A DNA stretch of 64,000 nucleotides, from NCBI GenBank assembly GCA_030446505.1, contig JAUJND010000010.1, positions 1 to 64,000 on the forward strand, given 5' to 3'. Under the pieces are notes generated by a model. It was not told where the DNA came from, did no database searches, and saw only the letters and a program-made list of their open reading frames with translations. Each line of letters begins with the position of its first letter. The stretch's first letter is position 1. Shown here in pieces: positions 37,235 through 44,359 of the stretch. This stretch comes from Chroococcidiopsidaceae cyanobacterium YX2bin18 (GTDB lineage: Bacteria; Cyanobacteriota; Cyanobacteriia; Cyanobacteriales; Chroococcidiopsidaceae). Both the position numbers and the translations under genes were made by a program.

Positions 37235-39231
37235 CTACCGAGACTTCAATTCAGATATTGCGCTCTTTGTCAACCCCGCGATCGCCTGATCTGTCGCCTT
37301 TGGTAAATGGTAATACTTCCCTCCTGCCTGCTGTGCCAGTTCCTTGGCAAACCCAGTGGAGATAAACTTATTCTCCGTGTCAATCACCAACATCTGCATT
37401 CCCAACGCCCGAATTCTAGCAGCAATTTCTAACAGTTCTCCTTTAATATCCGGCTTTTCCCCTTCTTGTAGCGGTTCACCAAGCGAACGCGCTAGAGAAA
37501 TATTTCCCCGCCCGTCTGTAATCGCCACAATTACAACTTGCCCAATATCGCCACCCATTCGAGCATTAGTGCCTACTCTCACCGCCTGAGTCAAACCATG
37601 AGCTAGAGGCGAACCACCACCACAAGGCATTCGTTCCAGCCGTCGCCGTGCTGAGGCAATTGAACGAGTCGGGGGTAAAAGTACCTCAGCTTGTTCTCCC
37701 CGGAAGGGAATCAGCGCCACCTGGTCACGATTTTCATAAGCTTCTGTCAATAGCCGCAACACAGCACCCTTAGCCGACTGCATCCGATTCAGCGCCATTG
37801 AGCCGGAGGCATCAACCACAAACACAACCAACGCCCCAGCTTTGCGGACTAAGCGCTTTGCCCGAATATCGCCCTGCTCAACAATTACTCGCTTACCAGG
37901 TTGCCTCTCACGCCGAGCTTTTTGATACGGCGCAGGCTGCTCTAAGTGTGGCATCAACGGCAATGCGTCGCACGGGGCCTTTAGGTAACATCGGCTTAAC
38001 ATAGCGACCCCGATCTTCGGAATAAATCAAACTACGACTACCAGATTTGCCCCGCCGTTGAGCCATTTGAGCAAAGTAAAGCACACTGGGGTCAAGGATG
38101 ACTCCTTCAGGGTCAAAAACAAATTCTTCTGGAATACTCGGCGGTTCTTGCTCGTCAGGTTCTTCAGGATTTTCGTCTTCTTCCTCCTCCTGCTCTTGTT
38201 CCGATTCATCCTGACTCTCAGGCGGTGGTGGCGGTGGCGGTGGTGGTTCTTCCGGTGGCGTTTGCACAATAGTTGCCCGTGGCACAATTACCAATTCCAC
38301 GGCACGGCGCAAATCTTCTGCATTCACTTGTGTCCGCCCATCAAGGCAGCAGATGCCTTGGCGACTCGTAGGGCAAATAACTCGGCTCGATGTCCCTGCA
38401 CTCCAGCCCGAATTGCCTCGTCAACTAAATAGGCAATTTGCTCATGAGTTACGCAGACATCCTTCAGCCATTCCCGCGCCAAAATAATCTGGGTTTTGAG
38501 GTCGTCAAGTCTTCGCTGTACTGATTCAGAAACTTCTGGGGTGAGGCGGCGTATTGGATAACTTGGTCTACTGCCTGGACTCGTTCATCTAATGCTAGTA
38601 CACCATCAGCGCTAAGTGCGATCGCTATTCTGTCCAGCAAATGTTCCCGCAGCGCTCCTTCTTCTGGGTTGTAGGTAGCAATAAATAGCGGTTTGCAAGG
38701 ATGCTGAAAACTAATGCCTTCCCGCTCAATTCGGTTGCGTCCCTCGGTTAATACCGTTAACAGTTGGTTGCTGATATTGTCATCAAGTAAATTAATTTCA
38801 TCTATATACAAAACGCCCCGGTGTGCCTGTGCCAGTAACCCTGGTTGAAACACTGGTTCGCCCTGTTTCACAGACTTCTCTACATCTACTGAACCCAGAA
38901 GTCGGTCTTCTGTGACTCCCCAAGGAATCTGCACGAAAGGCGCTGGGATAACTTCTGTAGTCAGCGTAGCGTTGCCTATTGCCAAAAGTTGGCTGTCCCA
39001 TTCTTCAGGATAGTTTGGATCGCAGTTGCTAATCGAACCTTTAACCACTTCAATCGGTGGCAGGAGAGCGTAAAGGGCGCGAGCCATAATGGATTTAGCA
39101 GTGCCGCGACGACCAGCGATCGCCACTCCCCCCAACCCCGGATCAACTGCTGCTAACAGCAAGGCTAATTTAATCGCTTCTTGACCAACTACCGCGCTCA
39201 GCGGAAAAGCAGGCATAAAGAGTGCAGTCAT
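37235..39231 (-). CDS. chlD: magnesium chelatase subunit D, several apparent single-base indels
   Basis: AAA+ half (38464-39231) | [15 protein letters not shown]...| Pro-rich/acidic linker ([34 protein letters not shown]) | VWA half with [27 protein letters not shown]. Confidence 0.92.
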
Positions 39232-39294: not shown

Positions 39295-40503
39295 TCACAT
39301 TGAACTCGCAGCTTCAGACGTTAGCAGTGACGGTAGGATTACTGTAAACTTAGAACCCACCCCAACTTGTGATACTAGCTCAATTTTGCCTTGGAGTAGT
39401 TTTACTAGCCGAGAAACTATTGCTAATCCTAAGCCCGTGCTATCGGGCAAGTGCAGCTTATTGGTGGAACCTGCTTGCACAAAAGGGTCAAAAATAATAG
39501 TTTGGTCTTCTGGCGCAATTCCAATTCCCGTGTCAGAGACAGCGATCGCCCACTTGTTATCTGCTAGCACTTGGCAGGTTACTTTGACGCTGCCAGAATC
39601 GGTGTAGCGAATTGCATTGCTAGCAAGATTTGTCACAATTTGTTGTAATCGCAAGGAGTCTGTCAAAACTTGTTCGGGGGCGCGATCGCACTCGACCACC
39701 ATTTTTATGCCTTTCGCCCGCGCCAAAGGCTCTAATACTTCTATGACATTTTTGATTAAAGATCGGACATCTGTTGGCACTACTTGGAGGTTCATTTTCC
39801 CAGCCTCATAGCGGGACACTTCCAATGAATCATTAATCAAGCGAAGTAACTGTCTACCATTGCGTAGCACGCGTTCAATGTGTTCCAAATTAGCAAAAGA
39901 GTCTTGTATCGCAGCGTTCTGTCTTTGTTTGCGTAAAAACAAATCTGAGTAGCCAATAATTGAAGTCAAAGGGGTTCTCAGTTCGTGAGCTAGATGCGAA
40001 AAATTGTCTTGATTAGCGCGAACTAAGCGAGTTAATTCTTGATTAGTAAGTTTTAACTGACTATGTAGCTGCTCTAGTCCTTCTAACCTCTCATCTACAT
40101 AACTGTTAAAGCACTGAGAAGTTGCTTCATCTACCACAGCGTCAATTAGACGCACGGCTCGAATTAATTCTGGAGGTGAACCCTGTAGCAGATCCGGCTC
40201 TAAGATAGAAAAGATTACCTGGCGCAGTAGACTATATTCTCGCGCAATCTCTATTGGCTCAAAGCCTTGTTCAGCCCTGAGAACTCCATGATGCAAACTC
40301 GCCTTTACTATCGGCTGAATTTCACTGGTTTTAGATTCGGACAGCACGGTTGCCATTGCCGCAAGGACATAAGAAAGATGATTTTCTAGAGCTGATTTGG
40401 ATAGATTATCATCGCTCTCAATCTGTTCATCTTGGCGAACGGCTTCCACCCACTTTTCTAGAATTGCATTAGTTTTATCGAGCAGTAATTGGCTAAAATC
40501 CAT
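39295..40503 (-). CDS. sensor histidine kinase with RsbRD-like N-terminal domain
   Basis: ILEKWVEAVRQDEQIE... FSHLAHELRTPLTSIIGYSDLFLR ... LASNAIRYTDSG...DTGIGIAPEDQTIIFDPFVQ...GLGLAIVSRLVKLLQG. Confidence 0.9.
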   Translation of the reverse strand: MDFSQLLLDKTNAILEKWVEAVRQDEQIESDDNLSKSALENHLSYVLAAMATVLSESKTSEIQPIVKASLHHGVLRAEQGFEPIEIAREYSLLRQVIFSILEPDLLQGSPPELIRAVRLIDAVVDEATSQCFNSYVDERLEGLEQLHSQLKLTNQELTRLVRANQDNFSHLAHELRTPLTSIIGYSDLFLRKQRQNAAIQDSFANLEHIERVLRNGRQLLRLINDSLEVSRYEAGKMNLQVVPTDVRSLIKNVIEVLEPLARAKGIKMVVECDRAPEQVLTDSLRLQQIVTNLASNAIRYTDSGSVKVTCQVLADNKWAIAVSDTGIGIAPEDQTIIFDPFVQAGSTNKLHLPDSTGLGLAIVSRLVKLLQGKIELVSQVGVGSKFTVILPSLLTSEAASSM

Positions 40504-40756
40504 TATGGCTCAGGTATAAGTAAGGCGTAGGTAAGTAAATTCCCCAGCTTAGGTTAGTTTAGCAATTTAGGAGTTAATGAAGTTCGTTTATTAGAATGTT
40601 CATCCACCGAAAGGTATAAATTCAGCTAATATCTCTACTATGCTTCATCTGGCTCTAACTATCATTGCAACAGTCGCACATAGTATCTGCCTGAAGAAAG
40701 GTTTATTTACTAGGCGAACAATGATAAAGTCTTGTGAAATTTGAATAAGTCAGCCT

Positions 40757-40925
40757 AATCCAGTGCTTCACCTGAAAAAATTGGTGTGAGGTGAAGCTGG
40801 AGCGGAGGAACCATTTTTGGGGCGTATCTCTAACTTTAGTTCTTGTTAATTAAGAGCGAGGCGAGAAGGACATTTCTCAGTCCTAGCCCGTCAGCTAACT
40901 TCGTAGGCATTGAGAGGAGACTGAA
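40757..40925 (+). ncRNA. probable ydaO-yuaA-type (c-di-AMP) riboswitch
   Basis: AAGCTGGAGCGGAGGAACCATTTTTGGGGCGTATCTCT...AGAGCGAGGCGAGAAGGACATTTCTCAGTCCTAGCCCGTCAGCTAACTTCGTAGGCATTGAGAGGAG resembles the ydaO consensus, particularly AGCCCGTCAGCTAACxTCGxAGGC. Confidence 0.8.
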
Positions 40926-41019
40926 TCAGCATTCTTCGTAATGTTTTGATATCATCAGTGTCCTTGGCTCGTAACGCTCAGTGTTTGTTGTACCTGCTCT
41001 CGACTCTGAGGAGTATAAA

Positions 41020-41874
41020 GTGACATTGCAACTGAATCTTGCTGCGATCGCAGTGGCTGGACAAGCTGCCTGGAGACGTACTAAACCCATTGTCATTCAG
41101 GATGTTATCTTACTGCCTTTAGCTGGTTTTTTAGGGGTTATCTTACTGTGGTGGTTTATTGCCACATTCTTGACTGATTTAATGCCTACTCCAGGTTGAG
41201 GCACTGGTAGAGAATTTAGACAATATCATGCATCCTTTCTATCAACGGGGACCTGGTAACTTAGGACTCGGTTGGTTATTACTAGCGAGTCTAAGACGGG
41301 TATTGATTGGCTTTGCACTGGGTGCGATCGTCGCCATTCCTGTTGGGTTTTTGATCGGAATGTCCAAGAAAGCGATGCTGGCACTCAATCCAATCATCCA
41401 GATATTCAAGCCGGTATCGCCCCTAGCTTGGCTTCCCATTTCACTAGCAATTTTTAACCTGGCAGATCCCTCTGCCATTTTTGTTATTTTCATTACCTCG
41501 TTGTGTACCACGATTATTAACACCGCCTTTGGCGTCTCCAGTGTTTCCAAAGACTACATAGACGTGGCGCGAGTGCTGGAAATGCCTAGATGGCGACGGA
41601 TTACAAAAATTATTTGGCTGCCAGTTTGCCTTATATTTTTACTGGCTTGCGAATTAGTTTAGGAATTGCTTGGCTAGTTATTGTTGCCGTAGAAATGCTC
41701 ACTGGCGGCGTTGGTATTGGCTTTTTTGTCTGGGATGAGTGGAGCCGTCTAAATCTAAGTTCAGTCTTTTTAGCGGTATTAGTAATTGGCTTAACGGGGC
41801 TAGTTCTTGACTACGCTGTAGGCAAAATTCAGGAATTAGTTACCCGTCGCCCAGCACGCCAAACTGAAATCTAA
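41020..41874 (+). CDS. nitrate/sulfonate/bicarbonate-type ABC transporter permease, frameshifted
   Basis: RVLIGFALGAIVAIPVGFLIGMSKKAMLALNPIIQIFKPVSPLAWLPISLAIFNLADPSAIFVIFITSL | LAASLPYIFTGLRISLGIAWLVIVAVEMLTGGVGIGFFVWDEW; GTG start with upstream GAGGAG. Confidence 0.88.
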
Positions 41875-42015: not shown

Positions 42016-43438
42016 ATGAGCGATACTTCCCAAAATCACTGGAATCGACGCAACTTTCTCAAGGGAGTCGGAGCAACGGCAAGCTGGTATGGCAGTTTCC
42101 TCTTGTGCGATTAACGCTAGTAAAGCGCCTCAGGGACTATCTCAAGCTGCCCTAGCGGTAGAACAAGTGGTAGACTCTAGTACCCTGGAAAAACCAAATC
42201 TAACCGTGGGGTATGTGCCAGTAAATGACTGCGCCCCCTTTGCCGTTGCCTGGGAAAAAGGTTTTTTTCGCAAGTATGGGTTAAATGTGCAACTCAGTAG
42301 AGAGGCAAGCTGGGGTACGTCTCGTGACGGAATTATTTTTGGTCGCCTTGATGCTTCTCCGGTTGTGTGTGGCGCTGTAACCAATGCTAGAACTGGTGCA
42401 GAAGGCGCACGTCATGCTCCCCTTTGTGCCGCGATGACGATTCACCGCCACGGTAACGCCTTGACGATGAATAAAGCAATGTGGGAATCGGGGTTGCGTC
42501 CTTGGCGAGAATACAACGGGGATTTAGAGGATTTTGGACGTGATTTTAGACGCTACTTTGATAACATTCCCTCAGAGCAACGAGTCTGGGCAGTTGTACT
42601 TAGTTCTTCAATCTACGAATACTTTGTCCGCTACTTGTCTGCTGCTGCTGGGGTAGCTCCCGACGATGAATTTCGGATCGTCATTATTCCGCCGCCGCAA
42701 ATGGTGGTGAATATGCGGATTGGGGCGATGCAAGCTTATATGGTAGCAGAACCTTGGAATACACGCGCTATTACTGGTAATGAAGGGATTGGCTTTACCT
42801 TCGCTCAGGGCAGAGAAATCTGGCAAGGACACCCGGATCGACTTTTGGGCGTGATGGAGTCCTTCATTAATGAGAATCCTAAAACTTATCGTTCCTTAGT
42901 CAAAGCGATGATTGAAGCTTGCCAGTATTGCAGCGAACAGAAAAATCGGGAGGAGGTTGCCAAGCTGATCTCAGACAAGTCATTTACTGGTGCTAAACCT
43001 AATTTGACTCGTGCTGCGATTGTTGGTGAATATAATTATGGCGGCTTTGATGGCAAAAAACGGATTGTGCGATCGCCTGACACAACTATTTTCTTTGACC
43101 TGCCGCCAAACCTTGCTAGAGTGCCAGGAGATCATTCAACATTTCTATGGCAGTCAGAAAGTATCTGGTTAATGACTCAGGCTGCTCGTTGGGGACAAAC
43201 TCCTGGCATTCCCAAAAATGCAGAAGCATTAGCCCGTAAAGCTTGGAGAACTGACCTTTATCGTGAAATTGCTGCTGAAATGGACATTGAGTGTCCCCAA
43301 GAAGACTACAAAATTGAACCCGCTGAAGTATTCATAGACAACAGAGAGTTTGATCCCAGCGATCCAGTAGGCTATCTGAATAGTTTTGAAATTAGAGCTA
43401 ACCGCCCCAAATCCTTTTTTTTAGGGGCTAGGAGCTAG
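42016..43438 (+). CDS. NrtA/CmpA-like ABC transporter substrate-binding protein with Tat-like signal, one apparent insertion near the 5' end
   Basis: MSDTSQNHWNRRNFLKGVGATA | GMAVSSCAINASK...LTVGYVPVNDCAPFAVAWEKGFFRKYGLNVQLSREASWGTSRDGIIFGRLDASPVV. Confidence 0.88.
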
Positions 43439-43519: not shown

Positions 43520-44359
43520 ATGACTAAATTTACCTCCTTCCCAAACAATGCTACTGAGAGAGATGTCAGCCCTACTGGATTTCTGGAGATTGAAAATTTA
43601 GTCAAGTCCTATCCAACAACTGATGGAGACGAGTTTGTCGTCCTGAACGGTGTCAATCTTACTGTAGGCGAGAACGAATATATTTCTGTAATTGGTCACT
43701 CTGGTTGTGGTAAATCTACCTTGCTTAAAATTGTCGCTGGTTTAGAAAAAGCAACTTCCGGCTCAGTGCGACTAGATGGAAAAGAAATTCGTAAACCCGG
43801 AGCAGAACGGATGATGGTGTTTCAACACTATTCGTTGCTGCCGTGGCTAACTGTACGCGAGAATATCCGGTTGGCTGTGGATGAAGTGTTGAAAGATGCC
43901 AAGCGTGCCGAAAAAATCAGCATTGTAAATGAACACCTGGCAATGGTGAATTTAATGGCGGCAGCTGACAAATATCCAGATGAAATTTCTGGGGGAATGA
44001 AACAGCGCGTGGGCATTGCTAGAGCTTTGGCAATTCGCCCCAAGATGTTGCTGATGGATGAACCTTTTGGAGCGCTTGATGCTTTGACTCGTGGCAAGTT
44101 GCAGCGCCAAGTTCTTGATATCTGGGAAAACCATCGGCAAGCAGTAATGATGATTACCCATGATGTAGATGAAGCAATTTATATGTCTGATCGCATTGTA
44201 TTAATGACCAATAGTCCAGCAGCGACAATTGGGGAAATATTGGCTGTACCGTTTGAGCATCCCCGTGATCGCGCCTCTATGCGAAACTCAAAAGAGTATT
44301 TTGAACTGAGGAACCACGCCCTGAATTTCCTAGACCACTATTTTACGCAAGATGAGTAG
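43520..44359 (+). CDS. NrtD/CmpD-like ABC transporter ATP-binding protein
   Basis: Walker A GHSGCGKST, signature SGGMKQRVGIARALAI, Walker B MLLMDEPFGALD. Confidence 0.93.
   Translation: MTKFTSFPNNATERDVSPTGFLEIENLVKSYPTTDGDEFVVLNGVNLTVGENEYISVIGHSGCGKSTLLKIVAGLEKATSGSVRLDGKEIRKPGAERMMVFQHYSLLPWLTVRENIRLAVDEVLKDAKRAEKISIVNEHLAMVNLMAAADKYPDEISGGMKQRVGIARALAIRPKMLLMDEPFGALDALTRGKLQRQVLDIWENHRQAVMMITHDVDEAIYMSDRIVLMTNSPAATIGEILAVPFEHPRDRASMRNSKEYFELRNHALNFLDHYFTQDE

Follow-up and report, generated by a model that had tools for sequence, protein, structure and literature searches.

A c-di-AMP riboswitch with a conserved two-hairpin module in front of an NrtA-family importer operon of cyanobacteria

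The locus and the state of its genes

The window, i.e., the whole 64,000-nucleotide stretch of Chroococcidiopsidaceae cyanobacterium YX2bin18 DNA that was analysed, contains a single match at the gathering level when it is scanned with cmscan against Rfam 15. This match is to RF00379, the c-di-AMP (ydaO/yuaA) riboswitch, and it precedes genes for a permease, an NMT1_2/NrtA-like binding protein and an NrtCD-type ATPase, in this order. The features of the locus are the following:

39295..40503, minus strand: gene of a divergently oriented RsbRD_N sensor histidine kinase, conserved as a neighbour by position
40742..40924, plus strand: c-di-AMP riboswitch aptamer (RF00379, full length, positions 1-134 of 134; cmscan 72.3 bits, E 7.7e-15, gathering cut-off 38 bits)
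40873..40917, plus strand: span of the aptamer pseudoknot, UUUCUCAGU (40873-40881) with AUUGAGAGG (40909-40917), 9 contiguous pairs in the window
40911..40998, plus strand: module A, about 85 nt with two hairpins, overlapping the 3′ tail of the aptamer (E 2.7e-14 with covariance model R1, built from 30 sequences, that of the window among them)
40916..40963, plus strand: hairpin H1 of module A (GGAGACUGA ... UCAGUGUCC), helices 1-3
40966..40998, plus strand: hairpin H2 of module A (consensus GGCUGGUAC ... GUACCUGC), helix 4
41008..41013, plus strand: Shine-Dalgarno sequence GAGGAG of the permease gene, from the sequence and a comparison of leaders
41020..41874, plus strand: ABC permease gene (NtrB-like, BPD_transp_1) with a GTG start at 41020, from family matches and the relative L098
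42016..43438, plus strand: substrate-binding protein gene of the NrtA family (NMT1_2 match, 6.5e-64)
43520..44359, plus strand: ATPase gene of the NtrCD subfamily (TIGR01184, 358 bits, cut-off 291.8)

The permease is split over three frames (41020-41199, 41228-41662 and 41590-41874) by single-base differences, at 41201 and 41618, with respect to the closest relative, a Gloeocapsa-labelled MAG (L098) whose permease is one intact frame of 282 aa and whose binding protein, 91% identical to that of the window, is likewise intact. In the binding-protein gene an extra base at 42082 puts the signal peptide, an N-terminal RRNFLKG stretch (42016 to about 42082) that is twin-arginine-like by eye, out of frame with the main coding frame (42089-43438). 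Single-base breaks also occur in the neighbouring chelatase-type gene (38343 and 38507), and elsewhere in the assembly an NrtC-type gene (on contig C28) and an NrtA-type gene (C66) are read in several pieces. Since the relative is intact and other genes have broken frames too, the breaks in the permease and binding protein of the window look like assembly indels, not decay. As to the assembly at large, its genes read in two or three frames (in the window those at 37235-39231 on the minus strand and those broken at 41201, 41618 and 42082) are consistent with indels of this origin, and such frames may lower its estimated completeness.

The riboswitch and the module that follows it

The aptamer belongs to a known class, and the region from 40742 to about 41019 constitutes the 5′ leader of a riboswitch that is predicted to bind c-di-AMP. 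The complementarity between loop and 3′ tail is typical of the class, with a mean of 7.6 pairs over 81 distinct leaders, among which the two pseudoknot strands, both being conserved, show no more covariation than swapped controls do. The distance between the 3′ end of the aptamer and the GTG at 41020-41022 is 96 nt. An earlier, sequence-only reading had placed a ydaO-type riboswitch on the plus strand at 40757-41022 (i.e., the leader together with all of the aptamer except the initial 15 nt), ending about 95 nt before the permease start, and had proposed a covariance-model search; the full-length match well above the gathering cut-off confirms the assignment, both motifs quoted at the time are located in the sequence (about 40799-40824 and 40876-40908), and the family matches bear out the predicted order of permease, NrtA/CmpA-like binding protein and ATPase. 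Within the whole assembly (4.15 Mb, 73.5% complete) no second RF00379 match and no gene with the diadenylate cyclase (DAC, PF02457) domain were found; a PF02457 gene is present in all four relatives tested (G001, G006, G038 and G056), and its absence here is probably a matter of incompleteness.

The link between riboswitch and operon, proposed in the same reading for this one locus, is kept across cyanobacteria. RF00379 matches occur in 43 of 60 relatives, where, of 70 aptamers inspected, roughly half directly precede the ABC operon, and the riboswitch is present in 96 genomes of a 388-genome sample of the phylum. An aptamer lies upstream of 50 of the 55 orthologous binding proteins of this sample (at least 67% identical; aptamer sought within 0-2.5 kb on the same strand), at a distance of 997-1322 bp. 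Of the five exceptions, four have their binding protein and an aptamer on separate contigs. In one of these four, G037, module A is found at the extreme end of the contig bearing the operon, so that the aptamer was probably lost to a contig break; in the fifth exception, G111, binding protein and aptamer are both on contig C1, far apart. The same picture emerges from 80 named loci (Gloeocapsa, Calothrix, Scytonema, Nostoc, Microcoleus, Phormidesmis and others): of the 77 with sufficient sequence upstream, 75 have an aptamer, which was detected by its motif in 71 and by cmscan in a further 4, and the operon retains its ATPase in 79 and its permease in 77 of the 80. The operon is almost an obligate target of the riboswitch. 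Cyanobacterial operons of this kind are also found in public MAGs labelled Tatlockia (L099) and Candidatus Gracilibacteria (L130), labels that are probably wrong.

The leaders of the ABC operon remain similar to one another far downstream of the aptamer, and the shared element is module A. In an alignment (A1) of 30 non-redundant sequences, some of which precede other genes, helices 1-3 of H1 are paired in 79-93% of the cells, with 6 pairs changed on both sides, and helix 4 of H2 in 89%, the window's own H2 being partly degenerate (GGCUCGUAAC); overall, 87.8% of the cells are paired. Sliding the partners lowers the pairing to 31-47%, a control that leans in favour of the structure insofar as the latter was derived, by summed pair probabilities, from the same leaders. 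The stronger point, though inflated by shared ancestry, is the excess of two-sided changes, which amount to 32 cells as compared to 16 in shuffles, none of 500 shuffles being as high. RNAalifold yielded no usable consensus from the leader alignment, which is rich in gaps, and module A is absent from Rfam 15, a relaxed threshold yielding only a chance miRNA match.

All 42 matches to module A in 34 selected genomes abut the 3′ end of an aptamer, as do 61 of the 62 matches in 387 genomes, the remaining one being at a contig edge. In this larger set module A was found after at least 42 of the 52 aptamers that precede the ABC operon and at least 19 of 92 other aptamers, both figures being lower bounds owing to strict filters, and it is also found before universal-stress-protein, glycosyltransferase and antiporter genes. 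Bound as it is to aptamers, and present before these other genes too, module A is probably part of the switch rather than of any one gene, as far as its distribution tells.

Pairing between the H2 loop and the Shine-Dalgarno sequence has a value of -5.72, as compared to -4.71 (sd 0.23) for shuffled loops, and is not better than with swapped partners, so that this sequence comparison is only suggestive. Furthermore, module A also occurs before genes whose Shine-Dalgarno sequence differs or whose start codon lies at a distance of hundreds of bases, which disfavours simple masking as its only function. An anti-aptamer pairing of CAGUCCUAGCC (aptamer) with GGCUGGUACUG (module A), complementary by eye in about 10 of 11 pairs, was considered and rejected, as it displays no covariation and its own energy (-13.0 kcal/mol) equals that of swapped partners (-13.1 kcal/mol).

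Other c-di-AMP aptamers of cyanobacteria are followed by a second conserved type of leader, designated type B. It consists of GGAGUACC...GGGUCUCC followed by ACCUCUC...GAGAGGU, in which GAGAGGU is the Shine-Dalgarno sequence, and looks like a masking hairpin; it is found at L081, L082, L087, L092 and L011, before universal-stress-protein genes, at L036, L041 and L047, and at L066.

The importer, its relatives and its neighbours

The binding protein is homologous to the solved NrtA (2g29) and CmpA (2i48), and this homology is decisive as to the predicted fold; its best-scoring comparison is with the sensor domains of NrtC and CmpC. In a maximum-likelihood tree rooted at the midpoint the riboswitch-linked binding proteins form a clade of their own, separate from both NrtA and CmpA, with 100/100 support. 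The pocket also sets them apart. In NrtA the charge of nitrate is balanced by His196 and Lys269, and CmpA uses Ca2+ (PMC8786288). The corresponding positions are His/Lys in the NrtA group, Gln/Glu in the CmpA group and Tyr/Arg in 53 of 53 riboswitch-linked proteins, none of which has an acidic, Ca2+-compatible residue at the position of Lys269. Since the pocket keeps a basic residue, an anion is a plausible cargo, the residue pair matching neither of the known importers.

Separate nrtA-type and cmpA-type genes are present in the same assembly, and the importer appears to be, judging from its sequence, the third NrtA-family system of the cell. In relatives an NrtA-type gene stands beside nirA (recognised by eye from its sequence) at other loci, and in G006 a LysR-type gene adjoins the separate cmpA-type locus. 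Upstream of the riboswitch, NtcA sites occur at background frequency (13 of 103 leaders, 11 being expected), and no nirA cluster is among the frequent neighbours of the operon at the 80 named loci.

The neighbours that do recur at these loci are a universal-stress-protein (USP) gene (41 of 80), a homologue of the divergent histidine kinase (34 of 80) and a CitMHS/ArsB-like permease gene (30 of 80). In relatives some of the USP and CitMHS/ArsB-like genes carry c-di-AMP aptamers themselves, and in Synechocystis a reported target of a c-di-AMP riboswitch is slr0753, a putative chloride efflux transporter (PMC10117731). The CitMHS and USP neighbours fit ion or osmotic homeostasis. In the light of the pocket residues, the separate nrtA and cmpA genes, the background level of NtcA sites, these neighbours and slr0753, a role in ion or osmolyte transport would fit better than nitrogen or carbon supply.

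Some clusters contain two or three c-di-AMP aptamers, placed before the CitMHS permease, the ABC operon and the USP gene (L050/L055/L087, on one contig of G038; L052/L092; L070/L081; L095/L054). At three loci (L033, L067 and L076) the operon is seemingly deleted, and the leader with the first permease codons remains before a CitMHS or USP gene, an arrangement that seems to represent capture of the riboswitch by deletion.

A model of control and its significance

The explanation that we favour, with a probability of about two in three, is that a c-di-AMP riboswitch equipped with module A acts as an OFF switch on a third NrtA-family importer, the cargo of which is an anion or osmolyte other than nitrate and bicarbonate. 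Binding of c-di-AMP would fold the aptamer and turn down the operon, by analogy with tested members of the class, the OFF behaviour of which has been described for the kdp riboswitch of B. thuringiensis (PMC6488665) and for Dehalobacter (PMC9337991); module A would relay the signal of the aptamer. The sequence-only reading had suggested early termination between 40925 and 41020, and this is not visible as an intrinsic terminator; indeed, none (GC stem followed by a U-tract) was found between 40400 and 41300, so that control would more likely occur at the level of translation initiation or by Rho-type termination. Translation initiation is attractive because about 20 nt separate the end of module A from the start codon of the permease. 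The cargo would probably be a small anion or osmolyte, neither nitrate nor bicarbonate, and its uptake would be part of ion and osmotic homeostasis alongside the neighbouring CitMHS-type permease and universal-stress protein.

A different cargo was implied by the earlier proposal of a link between c-di-AMP and nitrogen or inorganic-carbon uptake, which finds no backing in the distinct clade, the Tyr/Arg pair, the separate nrtA- and cmpA-type genes and the NtcA sites. That the operon imports nitrate/nitrite or bicarbonate, with c-di-AMP directly gating their uptake, is in our opinion unlikely, despite the TIGR01184 score of the ATPase, the NMT1_2 match of the binding protein, the fact that NtrB is the best match of the permease pieces, the basic residue retained at position 269 and the failure of Synechocystis c-di-AMP mutants to recover from nitrogen chlorosis (PMC10117731); the clade is on a long branch, Tyr replaces His at position 196 throughout, the cell has nrtA-type and cmpA-type genes elsewhere and NtcA sites are at background. 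Furthermore, annotation is a poor guide in the NrtA/CmpA superfamily: genes that are associated with ykkC and carry the annotation of nitrate/sulfate/bicarbonate transporters are part of a guanidine riboswitch class (PMC7266159), and guanidine is imported by an ABC system in Synechocystis (PMC12186494).

The function of module A admits another interpretation, namely that it is a second sensing or protein-binding domain, responding to an ion, a metabolite or a protein, and that the leader integrates two inputs in governing a new class of anion/osmolyte importer. Tandem Na+/c-di-AMP riboswitches exist (PMC9337991), and it is unusual for an expression platform that sequence and fold are kept across cyanobacterial families and several downstream genes, with loop nucleotides conserved despite differing Shine-Dalgarno sequences. 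An independent sensor, on the other hand, should sometimes stand alone, whereas module A is apart from an aptamer only at one contig edge, and no Rfam class matches it; such a two-input switch is unlikely. Still less probable is that the operon is a pseudogene in this organism and the riboswitch a relic. The breaks at 41201, 41618 and 42082 and a shortened operon in one member of another genus (L053) speak for decay; against it, all three breaks are single-base differences from a relative with a 91% identical binding protein, the main coding frames are still long, and the single-base breaks of the chelatase-type gene, like the pieces of the NrtC-type and NrtA-type genes, follow the pattern of assembly indels.

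The favoured OFF switch shares with the RF00379 class a full-length aptamer far above the gathering score, the pseudoknot complementarity and a location within a transport operon's 5′ leader, and differs from it by a covarying, sequence-conserved two-hairpin module outside the Rfam model; unlike kdp of B. thuringiensis (PMC6488665) and the Dehalobacter tandem (PMC9337991), the leader in the window is without an intrinsic terminator. The riboswitch of slr0753 (PMC10117731) is of the same class and also cyanobacterial, and the aptamer-bearing CitMHS/ArsB-like permeases of relatives have a putative kinship to slr0753, whereas the target in the window is a three-gene ABC importer. With NrtABCD and CmpABCD this importer has in common the families of the binding protein, permease and ATPase; it differs from them in the separate clade of its binding protein with Tyr/Arg at the charge-setting positions, in having one ATPase and no fused NrtC-type sensor domain, and in its gene order (permease, binding protein, ATPase) with a c-di-AMP riboswitch in front.

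The literature searched makes no mention of the association of aptamer and operon, which Nelson 2013 or Block 2010 may list in their supplements; to the extent that this could be verified, neither module A nor the importer's pocket signature has been described before. The annotation "nitrate transporter" should not be read as control of nitrogen by c-di-AMP. Few direct targets of c-di-AMP are known in cyanobacteria, and the near-universal pairing of the riboswitch with one orphan importer ties the cargo of the latter to processes controlled by c-di-AMP, offering a testable route to its identity, while module A represents a conserved output domain of a riboswitch that is open to study across many natural variants.
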